Below are positions 3,630 to 12,456 of a DNA stretch of 30,476 bases, piece after piece. How positions within the stretch are numbered: the stretch's first letter is position 1; each line of letters begins with the position of its first letter. Under the pieces are notes generated by a model. That model was not told the DNA's origin, searched no databases, and saw only the letters and a program-made list of their open reading frames with translations. The stretch lies in the IMG/VR virus record IMGVR_UViG_3300046463_000479, positions 1-30,476 of that record, one strand, 5' to 3'. Both the position numbers and the translations under genes were made by a program. Source of the stretch: a virus.

Positions 3630-4148
3630 TCACTCAGGCACCCAGCCGTTTGCAAAGGCCGCAGCAGAACCGCGCTCGATCATTCCGCCCGTATCCTGAA
3701 GGCGGTCCACTTCTTCGTCTTCCATCCCTAGCCGCCGCATAATCTCCTCCGCTGGAATTTTCATTTCATGCGCCAGCGTGCGCACAATATCCGCCATCTT
3801 TAAGACGCCATGATTTCCGCGCGCCCGATTATGCCGGATGGTAGACATCATCTGGTGCGCCGCATCGCCGGGTCGCAATCGGACTACCGGGACCAGCCCC
3901 TTAGTTAAAGCCTTTACGTCCTTGTCGGCCGAAGCGAGCACCCATCTATGAAAGCCATCTACGAGCTCACCGTCCTGGCGGGCGACTAGCGGCTGAGTCC
4001 AGCCGTCCTCTAGCAGCGACACCTTGAGCAATTCTAGTTCGGGCGGCGCAACGTGATTAGGATTATAGTTGTTGGCGCGGAGCGTGTCGGGCTTGACCCA
4101 CTCGACCGCGCTGATCGGTTGCTTCTTTAGGCCCGGAATATCCACCAT
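3630..4148 (-). CDS. ParB/sulfiredoxin-fold protein, IbrB-like
   Basis: A 172-residue protein. Residues about 14-60 carry a ParB-N type core (SLLEDGWTQPLVA, then the DGFHR box near residues 63-67), followed by IRHNRARG and a helical segment ending in LGMEDEEVDRL that may be helix-turn-helix-like. This combination matches the IbrB-type ParB proteins that pair with a DUF3440/IbrA PAPS-reductase-like protein, which is exactly the gene upstream (49-nt gap). The start is ATG at 4148; the ribosome-binding site is weak. A TATAAT box lies in the gap, though without a convincing -35 partner. ParB-fold proteins can bind DNA, hydrolyse CTP or have nuclease activity; which applies here is not shown. Confidence 0.8.
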   Translation of the reverse strand: MVDIPGLKKQPISAVEWVKPDTLRANNYNPNHVAPPELELLKVSLLEDGWTQPLVARQDGELVDGFHRWVLASADKDVKALTKGLVPVVRLRPGDAAHQMMSTIRHNRARGNHGVLKMADIVRTLAHEMKIPAEEIMRRLGMEDEEVDRLQDTGGMIERGSAAAFANGWVPE

Positions 4149-4197
4149 AGCTGCACCATTATAACCGCGAGGAGAATCAAGACCGGCCAGGGTTCTC

Positions 4198-5448
4198 TCA
4201 CGTAGCGAGTTCTTTACGGTAATGCTCCCACGCTTTTTTCATCTCTGCCTCTTGCCGGAATGGCCGAACTGGTTGCTTACGGCCTTTATAGTCGCCGCGC
4301 ATTGCAATCATCAACAGGAACCGCCAGGAAACACCCGTATCCGGATGCGGCACCGTTGGCGCTATAGGGTCCGAGGTCTTACCGTAGTGATTACGAACCC
4401 AGTTCTGCACCCGGCTGGCAATCTGCGAGCGGTACGGCTGTGGATGCTTAGCGATCCAGTACCGGACCCAATTAGGCCACGTAAAATTACCCGGCTTGGA
4501 TGGTAGAGCGCTGAAAGCATAAAGTTCAGTCGTAGAGTAGCGCGCCGCCGTTGCGCTACCGGGAACCCGGTTACTCATCTTGTCCCAGATGTCGGGAAAA
4601 CACACCGAATACATCCACAGGTTTTGCATCGGTTCCTCGCCGTAAGGTGGCGCGCAACGCTGCGCGTTGCGGGAGACACCGGCCATTTCCATCGCATCAT
4701 AGGCGCGGTTGTAATCGAGCTTGAACTGCTTGGGGTAGGTCCAGACGTCAGCCGTTGACCAGTCGTAGATCGGATAGACCTTCCAGAGATTATCCGCCCA
4801 AGGCCGCACATAGGGTCGGGTGTCCCGATGCCGATGGAGGACAGCGCGAGTCCGCGCGAGGCTCTCATTGGCCCGTATACCCATAACCATCCCTACCCGG
4901 CCGTAGTCCAAGGCATCGAATATAAGAGGTACGCTTTCGGGCATCGTAGGGCGGGCCGCGGTAGCCCTTGGGAACCCCGGCACGGCCCCTGCCGTAATAG
5001 CCTCCGGGGGTAGGGGCCTAACCCATTTGGCCTCTACCTCCGGCCCCCAGGGATACCAGAAGGGTTCCCGCCTGGAACAGCCGTTTCGATGCTGAATGGG
5101 TAGGCAATACCAGCGTACTTCTACCCCCGGTAGCACAGTGCAGCGGCGCACGTAATGCTCTGTATCGTAGGGAATAGCCTCCTCGTCATAGAAAAACGCT
5201 ATAACCCGCTGCCCCCGCGCGCGGGCTACCTCAAGGGTCAGGTGTAGACAAACCGTCGAATCCTTGCCCCCGCTAAATGAGACTGCGAGCGTATCGAATA
5301 GCTTGTAGCAATCGTTTAGCCGTTCAAGCGCTAGGTCGAGCACGCTACGGTCAACAAGCTTTTTCTTGGCGTAGACTCCTGTCGATAGCGACTTGCTCGA
5401 CTTACTATCTTGGACCAGATCATCGCCGCTGTAGCCTTCGTCGCTCAC
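4198..5448 (-). CDS. PAPS-reductase-like PP-loop protein (DUF3440 / IbrA-like)
   Basis: A 416-residue protein with the PP-loop SGGKDST at residues 59-65, which binds ATP or an adenylylated substrate in the PAPS reductase / ATP pyrophosphatase superfamily. Further signatures are MGIRANESLARTR near the middle and a C-terminal region (GEEPMQNLWMY, then WDKMSNRVPGS) that I recognise from the DUF3440 family rather than from true CysH. It starts at GTG, whose GTGA overlaps the cupin stop codon by 4 nt, so translation is probably coupled. The ParB-like partner follows. The superfamily includes CysH and the DNA phosphorothioation protein DndC, but the substrate of DUF3440 members is not established. 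It is unlikely to be an assimilatory enzyme given its location in a phage early operon. Confidence 0.87.
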   Translation of the reverse strand: MSDEGYSGDDLVQDSKSSKSLSTGVYAKKKLVDRSVLDLALERLNDCYKLFDTLAVSFSGGKDSTVCLHLTLEVARARGQRVIAFFYDEEAIPYDTEHYVRRCTVLPGVEVRWYCLPIQHRNGCSRREPFWYPWGPEVEAKWVRPLPPEAITAGAVPGFPRATAARPTMPESVPLIFDALDYGRVGMVMGIRANESLARTRAVLHRHRDTRPYVRPWADNLWKVYPIYDWSTADVWTYPKQFKLDYNRAYDAMEMAGVSRNAQRCAPPYGEEPMQNLWMYSVCFPDIWDKMSNRVPGSATAARYSTTELYAFSALPSKPGNFTWPNWVRYWIAKHPQPYRSQIASRVQNWVRNHYGKTSDPIAPTVPHPDTGVSWRFLLMIAMRGDYKGRKQPVRPFRQEAEMKKAWEHYRKELAT

Positions 5449-6170
5449 GTTATTTCCTGCGTCCTGATACGGTCTATGTTCTTGGCCGAGACGCCGCCAA
5501 CGAGAGTGCGGTTTAGCATCGGGTGTTCTTCATGCGTCGGGCCGAAGTCGGAATCCGGATGAAAGACGGTAAGCTGCATCGCACTATCGGTTGTCTCGAA
5601 AGCGTGCACGGCGTCCGGGGCCAGGATGAACATACTACCCGCGTCTAGGCTCTCGGTGCCGTCCTCTGTATGGCACAGGCCATGACCAGTGTGGATCATG
5701 CCGATACGCACGCTAGGGTGCGTATGTTTGGTCTGTGAAATACCGACCGGAAAGTGCAGGAAATTAAAGCATGGCTCGCCGCGTAGCGGCGGCGAGATTA
5801 ACAGCGTGTCCGAACAGCCGTCGATATATTTCAGCCGCCCTTTGTCTTCCAGAAACCGGCCGACAATATTAAGGCCGAAGTAGTCATTGCGAAATGCAAT
5901 AAAGCCCTTGCTCCCCTCCGAGGCAAGGATCTTGGAGCGATTGTTCTGTGGGATTGAAAAGTAGGAGTGATCGAACAACACCCGATCAAAGCGACCGTCA
6001 ACCATCACCCACGTTTGTCCTTCATGCAGATAACCGAACAGCGTACCCTTGCCATGTATCTCCAAGGATTCCATGTCACTGTTTATGCCGTAGGCGCGGC
6101 ACGGAAATTCCGCATCATCGAACGCGGCCATTAGGCCATGCCGCACTGGCTCGATAGTGGCTGGCTTCAT
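5445..6170 (-). CDS. Cupin-domain protein
   Basis: A 241-residue protein. The C-terminal domain (about 145-215) has a cupin signature: HTHPSVRIGMIHTGHG for motif 1 (HxH retained, the usual Glu not seen) and GSMFILAPDAVHAF for motif 2 with P and H in place. The N-terminal 110 residues could be a degenerate second cupin barrel. The ATG overlaps the stop of the ParB-like gene (ATGA), and its own stop overlaps the PP-loop gene (GTGA), so it sits inside a translationally coupled cassette. Cupins range from metal-dependent dioxygenases and isomerases to sensors; a metal site is plausible from the histidines. The substrate is unknown. Confidence 0.75.
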   Translation of the reverse strand: MKPATIEPVRHGLMAAFDDAEFPCRAYGINSDMESLEIHGKGTLFGYLHEGQTWVMVDGRFDRVLFDHSYFSIPQNNRSKILASEGSKGFIAFRNDYFGLNIVGRFLEDKGRLKYIDGCSDTLLISPPLRGEPCFNFLHFPVGISQTKHTHPSVRIGMIHTGHGLCHTEDGTESLDAGSMFILAPDAVHAFETTDSAMQLTVFHPDSDFGPTHEEHPMLNRTLVGGVSAKNIDRIRTQEIT

Positions 6171-6838
6171 GTTTTCCTCTTTGTATTTTTTGCCATTCCG
6201 ATTAGCGCCTCCGCAGTCGTGCGCAGCTTTAGCTTGTCACGCTCCCCGGATAGCCATGTAACTACGATGTCTCGATCCTCCGGCATCATATCAAAGCGAA
6301 GCTGTACCCCGCGCGTCCCCGGCATGACCGCGCTACTCTGCGTCACGCTTTCAGGCTCGATCATGTCGCCCATGAAACTGCTAAGCTTGAAGCCCTCTAG
6401 CTCCTGATCGCCGAACCCTAGAAGCGGCAGATCAAAGCCAGCTATCTCAAGGTCGCGCAATTCTGCGGTAAGCTTTGGAATGTCCCACTCAGCTAATCGA
6501 CCCAGTTGGTTGTCCGCCACGCGGTAGGCGCTCTTTTCCTCCACCGTCCAGCCTACCGCTACTGCTACCGGGAAGGATGCAAGACCGAGACGTTGCGCCG
6601 CTAAGAGGCGGCCATGCCCATAGATCAACACTCCATCCTCATCGACTAGCACCGGCGCAGTCACGCCGAACCGTCGCATACTTTCTGCTAGTTGCTTGAC
6701 CTGTGCATCAGTATGGCGCAGCGGGTTGCGCTCGTAGGGCTTAATCTTCTCTATAGGCCAGCGCTCGATCTTATCGACCGGCCAATCCCTAAGCGGCCCC
6801 GAATCCTTGGTCTTGATCTTGGTCGCACTCTTCGCCAT
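6167..6838 (-). CDS. ParB N-terminal domain protein
   Basis: A 223-residue protein with a typical phage ParB-N domain: IEKIKPYERNP at about 29-39, LAESMRRFG, the GHGR box at 74-77 and the RVADNQL segment near 106-112, followed by WDIPKLTAELRDL and a GFGDQELEGF tail. In many phages this domain is fused or adjacent to a DNA methyltransferase, and a methyltransferase-like gene lies upstream in this operon at 8879. The ATG at 6838 lies 50 nt inside the upstream small ORF, with only a weak GGATGG ribosome-binding site. It is coupled to the cupin gene by ATGA. A role in DNA modification or nicking is inference. Confidence 0.82.
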   Translation of the reverse strand: MAKSATKIKTKDSGPLRDWPVDKIERWPIEKIKPYERNPLRHTDAQVKQLAESMRRFGVTAPVLVDEDGVLIYGHGRLLAAQRLGLASFPVAVAVGWTVEEKSAYRVADNQLGRLAEWDIPKLTAELRDLEIAGFDLPLLGFGDQELEGFKLSSFMGDMIEPESVTQSSAVMPGTRGVQLRFDMMPEDRDIVVTWLSGERDKLKLRTTAEALIGMAKNTKRKT

Positions 6839-10423: not shown

Positions 10424-11365
10424 ATGAAACCTGTACGATGGGATGGCACGCTACCAATAAAACGGCCCGGTATTTATGCCGGGGTGCCGATGTCCGTCTA
10501 TCACAGCCAGGATATTTGTCCGGGGCCGAGTATCAGTAGCGGTGGCCTCCGTAGGATGTTCAAGGAATCGCCCGCGCACTTTTTTGCTAAGTGGGATGGC
10601 AACCCGAACCGTAAGCCGGAAGAAACGCCGCGCCACTTCATCTTAGGACAAGCCCTCCATCATTTGCTGCTAGGCGAGCCGGGGTTCGCCAAGTTCTTTG
10701 CTATCCAGCCCGCCGAGTATGAAAACAAAAAGGGTGAGGTAAAGCCGTGGAGCAATAACGCTACTGATTGCAAAGAGTGGCACGAGGCGCGCAAGGCGGA
10801 AGGCCGCAAGGTTTTGTTAGCGAGCGAAGTCGAAGACATACGCGGCATGGCTGAGAGCCTTGGCAGGCACCCTATTATCAAAGCCGGTGCGCTAAACGGT
10901 CAGATAGAACGCTCGATCATCTGGCAAGATAAAGAGACGGGCATTTGGCTCAAGTCTCGACCCGATACCATCCCCGGTGATAGCGCCGACTTTGTTGATC
11001 TGAAGTCAATCTTCAGCGTGCAATATAATGACGTAGTAAAACGCATGGGGGATTCTTCCTACCAGATGCAGGCGGCGTTAGGGCGGCGCGCAGCGCGCGA
11101 AGTTCTCGGCTTACGCGCTATCACATGGTCGTTGGTGTTCGTAGAAAAATCCACGCCCTATTGCGTGCGGGTATTCACGCTAAAGGATAACGACCTTGAT
11201 CGCGGCGAGAAGCAGATACAGGCGGCGATTCATGCCTTTGTGCGATGCCTAAAGTCTAAACACTGGCCGGGGCCGGGGGGGGAGAGCCGCGATGCAGAAT
11301 ATATTGAACTAAGTGAGCGTGAGCAGAAAGCCATAGATGACAAGCTTGCAATGATGGAGAGCTAA
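10424..11365 (+). CDS. RecE-like PD-(D/E)XK exonuclease
   Basis: A 313-residue protein matching the C-terminal nuclease part of RecE / exonuclease VIII. It has GLRRMFKESPAHF near 41-53, FILGQALHHLLL at 72-83 (histidine 80), then the acidic active-site set E162, D181 (SRPD) and D192-L-K194. It would resect double-stranded ends 5' to 3' for the annealing protein encoded 2 nt downstream. AGGGG lies about 8 nt before the ATG. It is the first gene of the rightward operon under the 10360 promoter. The alternative, a generic RecB-like nuclease, is disfavoured by the RecT neighbour. Confidence 0.87.
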   Translation: MKPVRWDGTLPIKRPGIYAGVPMSVYHSQDICPGPSISSGGLRRMFKESPAHFFAKWDGNPNRKPEETPRHFILGQALHHLLLGEPGFAKFFAIQPAEYENKKGEVKPWSNNATDCKEWHEARKAEGRKVLLASEVEDIRGMAESLGRHPIIKAGALNGQIERSIIWQDKETGIWLKSRPDTIPGDSADFVDLKSIFSVQYNDVVKRMGDSSYQMQAALGRRAAREVLGLRAITWSLVFVEKSTPYCVRVFTLKDNDLDRGEKQIQAAIHAFVRCLKSKHWPGPGGESRDAEYIELSEREQKAIDDKLAMMES

Positions 11366-11367
11366 CT

Positions 11368-12456
11368 ATGAGCGACCTAGAATATATGCCGAGCAACCAA
11401 CAACAGAAGCCGATGACCAAGCGAGACTTGGCAACCTTCGGCATGGAAGCGCTGGATAAGACCCGCGCGGGACAAGTAGCCGTAACGCGCGCCGCTGGCG
11501 GCGTTTCGTTTGCTAGCGCGCTTGAGGTAATGGAGTTCGCAAAGCTAATGGCCGTTGCCGACAAAGCGGTGCCGAGGCATTTACGAAACAATGCCGGTGC
11601 CTGTCTGCGTATCGTCTTCCAGGCAGTCGAGTGGCAGATGTCACCGTGGGCGGTCGCGGACAAAAGCTACGAAGTAAACGACCGCATCGCCTATGAGAGC
11701 CAACTAATTCATGCCGTGATCGAAGCCCGCGCGCCGCTGCGCGAGCGGTTGATATGCGAGTACGCTGGCGAGGGGGCCGAGCGCGAATGTCGAGTAGTCG
11801 GCAAATTCCTTGACGGTACGGAGCGCGATTACACGACGCCGCAAATAGGAAAGATACGGGTCAAGAATAGCCCGCTCTGGAAAGACGACCCGGACCAGCA
11901 GCTATTCTATGCGGGCAGTCGTAGTTGGGCGCGCAAGTGGTGTCCTGATGTTCTGATGGGACTCTATACCAAAGACGAACTAGCACGCGATCCTACCTTG
12001 GGCCGTGACGAGTCCGAACTGCCGGGGCCGGGGCTACATGCGCGGCTCGTTAGCGGCAACGTAGATCGAGAGGAAGGACATAGGGAGGGCTATGTTGAAA
12101 CAGAACTTGGACCTGAAAAAGATAACGCAAGTGTGGATGACGCAGAACCACGGGGTGATGATACTACTGCCCCGGCGACTAGCACTGTTCGCAAGGGCAA
12201 GCGTAGCAGAAAAACTAAGCCAGTCGAAGCTATCGCGCCGTCGCCCTCGCTCAAAGCCGAAGATATAAAGAACGCAAAGCAGTGGGCAATCTATTGCGCG
12301 GCATGGCTAAGGGAATCTATCAGCGCTGACGATATTCGCAAGCGATGGGATGCAGAGCGCAAGCTGCGTAACAACGCTGGCGTTACCGCCGACGAGCGAG
12401 TGCCGGTGCAGAACTACATGGTAGATCGCTGCAAGGAATTGGGAGAACCCCAATGA
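11368..12456 (+). CDS. recT: RecT-family single-strand annealing protein
   Basis: A 362-residue protein. Residues about 50-205 contain the RecT signature blocks: AGACLRIVFQAVEWQMSPW, IAYESQLIHAVIEARAPL, SPLWKDDPDQQLFYAGSR and the CPDVLMGLYTKDEL end. The C-terminal 140 residues are variable, with a Lys/Arg-rich stretch (RKGKRSRKTKP) and a last helical segment like other long alphaproteobacterial phage RecT proteins. It pairs with the RecE-like nuclease for recombination-dependent replication. GGAGAG precedes the ATG. The stop overlaps the next gene by ATGA. Confidence 0.92.
   Translation: MSDLEYMPSNQQQKPMTKRDLATFGMEALDKTRAGQVAVTRAAGGVSFASALEVMEFAKLMAVADKAVPRHLRNNAGACLRIVFQAVEWQMSPWAVADKSYEVNDRIAYESQLIHAVIEARAPLRERLICEYAGEGAERECRVVGKFLDGTERDYTTPQIGKIRVKNSPLWKDDPDQQLFYAGSRSWARKWCPDVLMGLYTKDELARDPTLGRDESELPGPGLHARLVSGNVDREEGHREGYVETELGPEKDNASVDDAEPRGDDTTAPATSTVRKGKRSRKTKPVEAIAPSPSLKAEDIKNAKQWAIYCAAWLRESISADDIRKRWDAERKLRNNAGVTADERVPVQNYMVDRCKELGEPQ

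Follow-up and report, generated by a model that had tools for sequence, protein, structure and literature searches.

A linked ParB, cupin and PP-loop gene unit with an exchangeable cupin position in uncultured bacterial viruses

What does a virus do with two ParB-like proteins, a cupin and a PP-loop ATP-pyrophosphatase encoded side by side? The question is raised by IMG/VR record IMGVR_UViG_3300046463_000479, the whole of which (30,476 bases) is the window analysed here. Its four-gene cassette lies on the minus strand at 6838-3630. ParB1 (6838-6167, 223 amino acids, ATG start) has a ParB/Srx fold and a GHGR motif. It is followed by a bicupin (6170-5445, 241 amino acids, ATG start, HTHP and PDAVH motifs), which we call the slot gene, by a PP-loop protein of the PAPS_reduct/DUF3440 class (5448-4198, 416 amino acids, GTG start, SGGKDST) and by the IbrB-like ParB2 (4148-3630, 172 amino acids, ATG start), again of the ParB/Srx fold, with DGFHR and HNRARG motifs. 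The ParB1 and cupin genes overlap in ATGA (6170-6167), the cupin and PP-loop genes overlap in GTGA (5448-5445), and a gap of 49 base pairs (bp) separates the end of the PP-loop gene from the start of ParB2. A preliminary description of this DNA had reported the same four frames and overlaps and the GHGR, DGFHR, SGGKDST and cupin HxH and P-x-x-x-H motifs, all of which we confirmed. It had also noted that no described four-part unit of this kind was known to it; we found none in the literature searched, and PAPS reductase and cupin both go unmentioned in a survey of the ParB fold from 2025.

We collected relatives from IMG/VR in scans seeded by individual proteins as well as by PP-loop and cupin alignments. 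The best 80 loci of each scan were kept (in the pattern search, the best 80 of at least 600 stretches), so closer relatives are over-represented. Dropping loci at least 90% alike left 103 PP-loop loci, 66 of them with adequate flanks. Gene presence was counted by six-frame profile searches, as counts from a gene caller missed cupins on GC-rich contigs. Among these 66 non-redundant viral relatives, ParB2 was present in all 66, ParB1 in 63, the cupin in 54 and all three in 53. One of the exceptions for ParB1 (locus L180) has a putative divergent ParB-like frame with a DGHQR motif at the ParB1 position. In the first-round relatives ParB1, cupin, PP-loop and ParB2 genes were contiguous, and their products were 28-73% identical to those of the window. 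Many contigs are fragments, and similar neighbours among related phages are not independent, for which the tree count given below is a partial correction. These data indicate that the four-gene unit is real and widespread in uncultured bacterial viruses, and they support the view of the preliminary description that it looks like a dedicated phage system. The linkage is not due to chance, because it recurs in contigs whose proteins are no more than 28-73% identical to those of the window.

The genes are also closely packed. By a loose measure that takes the nearest candidate start, a start lay no more than 20 bp from the stop before it in 55 of 64 ParB1-cupin, 46 of 55 cupin-PP-loop and 75 of 97 PP-loop-ParB2 neighbour pairs. 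In most loci a large terminase gene lies 0.4-3.4 kb downstream of ParB2. Pfam assigns these terminases to no fewer than three unrelated types (GpA, Terminase_6 and TerL_ATPase/TerL_nuclease).

Our main new finding, which the preliminary description could not have seen, is that the cupin position is exchangeable. The slot lies mostly between ParB1 and the PP-loop gene, and Pfam names several replacements for the cupin. A sodium:solute symporter (PF00474, SSF) takes its place in six loci (L018, L019, L020, L041, L076 and L026), and a TctC receptor (PF03401) in L081 and L083. Elsewhere the cupin is replaced by a small cupin of a different kind, sometimes together with an aldehyde dehydrogenase (Aldedh; L024, L025, L062, L050, L046 and others), or by a DegT aminotransferase together with an inositol-1-phosphate synthase (Inos-1-P_synth; L049 and L056). 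The slot can also move: a small cupin lies downstream of ParB2 in L047, L055, L061 and L064, the cupin itself follows ParB2 in 10 loci (L022, L092, L097 and others), and it precedes ParB1 in L028. A near-full-length sodium:solute symporter gene lies within the modification-like cassette of a virus contig (L018:8596-10032; also L040 and L076).

When only PP-loop-seeded loci were counted and cupin-seeded loci were excluded, 32 loci had the cupin, 11 an alternative, one neither and none both (Fisher P = 1.6e-9, a post hoc value, as the alternatives were listed after the cupin-less loci had been viewed). The absence of any locus with both is the firmer part of this result and is independent of how the alternatives were chosen. 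The lone locus with neither (L057) has a 244-amino-acid frame there with HxH and PxxxSH motifs and no Pfam match. On a maximum-likelihood tree of the PP-loop protein, which was built quickly and is weakly supported at many branches, the state switches between cupin and alternative at least seven times. Sister pairs include L017 (cupin) with L018/L041 (symporter), L072/L172 (cupin) with L081/L083 (TctC) and L022 (cupin) with L047 (small cupin). The pattern resembles one function repeatedly replaced by another. Two further genes occur with either slot state. In 18 of 66 loci there is an additional small PP-loop gene of the PAPS type, and in 5 of 66 a gene for a class-II glutamine amidotransferase. 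At L157:2173-3475 and L180:8497-9919 these two adjoin each other, like a split asparagine synthetase.

The proteins themselves have conserved active sites. The window PP-loop protein matches PAPS_reduct (E = 6.9e-13) and DUF3440 (PF11922; E = 3.9e-11, 43.5 bits against a cut-off of 25), both over the Pfam cut-off, as well as PHROGs family phrog_2302 (6.5e-80). S59, G61, K62, D63 and S64 are invariant across 65 sequences. The preliminary description had named unlinked homologues and unconserved active residues as what would speak against a unit; we found linked homologues and conserved residues. The structural model (predicted local distance difference test score, pLDDT, 90.4) is closest to PAPS/APS reductases and to two adenylylating enzymes, ATP sulfurylase and FAD synthase. 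A sequence search of solved structures gave matches at the superfamily level only.

Both ParB assignments fall just under the Pfam cut-off for ParB_N (ParB1 E = 1.8e-5, ParB2 1.9e-4) and are strengthened by PHROGs (ParB1 phrog_620, 3.9e-45; ParB2 phrog_2159, 1.7e-61). ParB1 additionally matches the ParB part of ParB-methyltransferases (phrog_498, 3.4e-42), and the DGFHR and HNRARG motifs of ParB2 are invariant in 16 sequences. Canonical plasmid partition (ParABS) was considered and rejected: ParB1 scores 18.7 bits against the TIGR00180 cut-off of 58.45, and ParB2 does not match this model.

The window cupin matches AraC_binding (3.7e-8) and Cupin_2 (7.2e-6) in Pfam, has no family in PHROGs and no NCBIfam match over cut-off. 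Across 81 aligned sequences H149, H151, R155, H189, Y115, Q146, H204 and H216 are invariant. H149, H151 and H189 form the 3-His site, and R155 stands where cupins usually have Glu. The AlphaFold2 model (pLDDT 95.9) matches bicupins, among them ureidoglycine aminohydrolase, BacB, AerE and quercetinase, at a template modelling (TM) score of 0.61 or less and 9-18% identity among the 50 matches listed; a fold search against a viral library gave no informative match. On these matches the protein is an enzyme-like bicupin of an unnamed family; no named bicupin enzyme family fits.

Neither the window cupin nor a distant relative had a tblastn match in 50,697 GenBank phage records, and the plasmid search gave a single match, on a Paraburkholderia replicon. 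A phage-only origin of the gene is ruled out by the best 80 bacterial loci, 76 of which lack the rest of the unit. For 46 of these 80 homologues, one of three neighbours is found no more than 4.5 kb away: an asparagine-synthetase-like protein (31 loci), an SGGIDST PP-loop protein (14) or the phage unit itself (4: L187, L188, L201 and L202). The cupin is thus repeatedly found near PP-loop ATP-pyrophosphatases that belong to separate families. Other bacterial cupins, as read from sequence, stand beside nonribosomal-synthetase-like frames or sugar-acid genes.

Two of these bacterial arrangements were observed repeatedly. In Planctomycetes, Verrucomicrobia, Methylococcales and others, the cupin clusters with an asparagine-synthetase-like protein of about 580 amino acids and a zinc-ribbon-like protein of about 330 amino acids without a Pfam match; each partner occurs in 31 of the 80 loci (L255, L217, L234, L241 and others of L181-L260). 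In Lewinella and others, the cupin adjoins an LWSGGIDST protein of about 358 amino acids that has no Pfam match (L213:8925-10001, L241:10648-11712, L260). The LWSGGIDST family is profile-related to asparagine synthetase (E = 2.5e-9).

In the window, the genes upstream of the cassette on the same strand are primosome-like, DNA methyltransferase-like and RusA-like resolvase genes, and a pair identified with PHROGs as a RecE-like exonuclease and a RecT-like annealing protein lies on the opposite, plus strand (10424-12456). Given these neighbours, the cassette belongs to the DNA-metabolism region of a tailed phage. All four cassette proteins recur at 99.8-100% identity in another IMG/VR contig, which is longer (36,019 bases). 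A plus-strand gene at 439-1809 is called an HNH endonuclease by PHROGs (phrog_1314) and has DUF2201 metallopeptidase-like and VWA-like domains in Pfam.

The reading we favour, with a probability of roughly 45%, is that, ahead of packaging, a ParB-guided PP-loop adenylating enzyme couples phage nucleic acid to a metabolite that varies, the exchangeable slot supplying the substrate. The two ParB/Srx-fold proteins, dependent on nucleoside triphosphates (NTPs) and DNA-handling, would recruit the PP-loop enzyme to the phage DNA at a late stage of infection. At the expense of ATP the enzyme would adenylate either the DNA or the metabolite, at a carbonyl, carboxylate or phosphate, and the joining of a small molecule would follow. 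The cupin would make or reshape the joined molecule. Elsewhere a transporter, another cupin with or without an aldehyde dehydrogenase, or an aminotransferase with inositol-phosphate synthase would provide the identical group or an equivalent one, and the optional second PP-loop and amidotransferase genes would add an ammonia-dependent step. The benefit to the phage may be protection from host nucleases. We infer a nucleic-acid target from the ParB proteins and from the position upstream of packaging genes, as in PMC9302106. Precedents that suggest such a target by analogy are ParB-fold helpers (PMC10853773, PMC12839542) and a CmoY-type ligase acting on phage DNA (PMC12783734).

Several points weigh against this reading. 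The modified nucleoside is a prediction from the genes; the slot alternatives do not converge on one metabolite; and the P value for the exchange is post hoc. The only named relatives, IbrA/IbrB, are named for gene activation and not for modification. A C5-methyltransferase (PF00145, CmoX-type) was found in only 3 of 48 unit-bearing records and a thymidylate synthase/hydroxymethylase (PF00303) in 0 of 48, although these records may be fragments. There is no regular dedicated base-marking enzyme, and therefore no target atom is indicated. Routes through thymidylate synthase or C5-methyltransferase are disfavoured. A more specific version, which we hold to be possible and rather doubtful, is a new hypermodification class. 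Here the ParB-guided PP-loop enzyme would directly activate ordinary DNA at a base carbonyl or phosphate, and one swappable gene would set a phage-specific metabolite, which a cupin would make, a virus-encoded symporter or TctC receptor would import, or an aminotransferase with inositol-phosphate synthase would build.

The unit might instead be a small-molecule-responsive regulatory switch of the IbrA/IbrB kind that turns on late phage genes. DNA and NTP would be bound by the ParB proteins, a signal in the form of a nucleotide or adenylate would come from the PP-loop protein, and the ligand would be either sensed or produced by the cupin. E. coli YbdN (IbrA) matches our PP-loop profile at 196 bits and YbdM (IbrB) matches the ParB2 profile at 156 bits. 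As in the unit, a DUF3440 PP-loop protein adjoins a ParB protein, both homologous to ours, and the pair is annotated as a co-activator of prophage gene expression. The position of the unit upstream of late genes and the best Pfam match of the cupin, an AraC-type ligand-binding domain, are consistent with this. IbrA/IbrB comprises two genes only, without ParB1 and cupin. The IbrA-type proteins have DWEAQ where the unit has DEEAIP, and they do not keep the HRNxC motif. On the PP-loop tree, a branch without support separates the 11 reference proteins from the unit. The kinship proposed in the preliminary description therefore holds at the level of homology, while the unit PP-loop proteins, judged by their own motifs, look like a distinct subfamily. 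Against regulation, the cupin is enzyme-like, with an invariant 3-His site and many other invariant polar residues, and transporters, aldehyde dehydrogenase, inositol-1-phosphate synthase and amidotransferase suit metabolism better than sensing. We consider regulation unlikely.

A role in anti-defence or host takeover, with the PP-loop and ParB proteins altering or destroying a nucleotide signal or host factor and the slot gene giving a cofactor, is quite improbable. ParB/Srx proteins bind ATP, GTP or CTP and are proposed to be nucleotide-directed effectors (PMC12704722, PMC10853773), and the phages mostly lack tyrosine integrases (over cut-off in 4 of 48 unit-bearing records, which may be fragments). 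On the other hand, the packaging-adjacent position and the swaps with metabolite genes need no such role, and PADLOC gave only remote DndC and BrxP matches for the four proteins, with no defence-system partner among them.

The preliminary description also raised sulfur-dependent modification. In such a reading, phosphorothioate-like or a thiolation, the PP-loop protein would pass sulfur via C115 and C124. Both cysteines are kept in at least 90% of 65 sequences, and the PAPS_reduct match and remote DndC similarity point the same way. However, ECGLH, the C-terminal catalytic motif of PAPS/APS reductase, is present in 0 of 103 unit PP-loop proteins. The label PAPS-reductase-like thus fits the PP-loop fold and the Pfam match and fails on this motif. 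The DndC equivalog model (TIGR03183) scores 32.3 bits over about 66 residues against a cut-off of 290.4, HRNxC is not common to IbrA-type relatives, and the recognised slot genes include no sulfur-related gene. The sulfur reading is therefore disfavoured, and we regard it as very unlikely. Least probable of all is a cargo hot spot, where ParB1 and PP-loop/ParB2 would flank a landing place for unrelated auxiliary metabolic genes without shared function: the alternatives are biochemically diverse and the cupin does turn up after ParB2 or before ParB1, but no PP-loop-seeded locus has both cupin and alternative, replacement is repeated, ParB1 and cupin are tightly packed, a cupin-ParB2 fusion exists in phage Gaia (described below) and the cupin is linked to PP-loop enzymes in bacteria.

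Why the unit matters follows from its relatives. The PP-loop protein is matched in 215 GenBank phage and 585 plasmid records, where among the matches listed the DUF3440 proteins are at most 36% (phage) and 34% (plasmid) identical. Such DUF3440/ParB pairs are thus common in phages and plasmids, yet our literature search found no chemistry for them; the papers covered name DUF3440 rarely and, judging by abstracts, never about phage modification. The swap pattern predicts a core enzyme acting together with a small molecule, which makes the question testable: natural substitutions on one core, cupin versus symporter, could reveal the attached group. If the favoured DNA modification is true, uncultured viruses would have a new way of protecting phage DNA. 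In bacteria, the unit also ties an unnamed cupin family to asparagine-synthetase-like enzymes.

Some isolated phages have related arrangements. Mycobacterium phage Gaia gp104 (L267:5341-6240) is an ectoine-synthase-like cupin (NCBIfam ectoine synthase, 118 bits, just below the cut-off of 128) fused to ParB2, beside a DUF3440 protein. Arthrobacter phage Shrooms (L268:3310-8352) and Bacillus phage 035JT001 (L270:3347-6636) have a cluster of ParB, PP-loop, ParB and a small methyltransferase-annotated gene without a Pfam match; in Shrooms it directly precedes the terminase. In Microbacterium phage Rasputia (gp151-156, L269), a PAPS-like PP-loop gene follows genes annotated as three glycosyltransferases, an acetyltransferase and a methyltransferase, a cluster that looks like DNA decoration. 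Serratia phage eta, considered as a lead for its ParB gene and reported hypermodified guanine, was set aside, as its paper finds no modified base.

Three known systems resemble the unit. Phage CaiB carries a modification operon of ParB, TET-JBP and pyrophosphorylase genes directly before the terminase (PMC9302106). These genes overlap and occupy the same place as our unit; the enzymes are unrelated to those of the unit, whose records contain no thymidylate synthase family member (0 of 48). In the Dnd and Dpd systems, a ParB-like NTPase is partnered with a DNA-modifying enzyme: ParB-fold DndB works with the PP-loop protein DndC (PMC10853773), and ParB-like DpdB works with the base-exchange enzyme DpdA of the deazaguanine system (PMC12839542). 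The unit PP-loop protein differs in falling far below the DndC cut-off and in being accompanied by metabolite genes. In the CmoA/CmoX/CmoY system, the ligase is of the asparagine synthetase class, whereas the unit has a PAPS/DUF3440 PP-loop protein plus a cupin/transporter slot. Like the unit, Cmo combines a phage ATP-dependent enzyme, in its case an AMP-forming ligase, with ParB-domain genes nearby, and joining of a metabolite to DNA is established for it: CmoY, asparagine-synthetase-like and often near ParB genes, joins glycine to carboxymethylcytosine in phages (PMC12783734).

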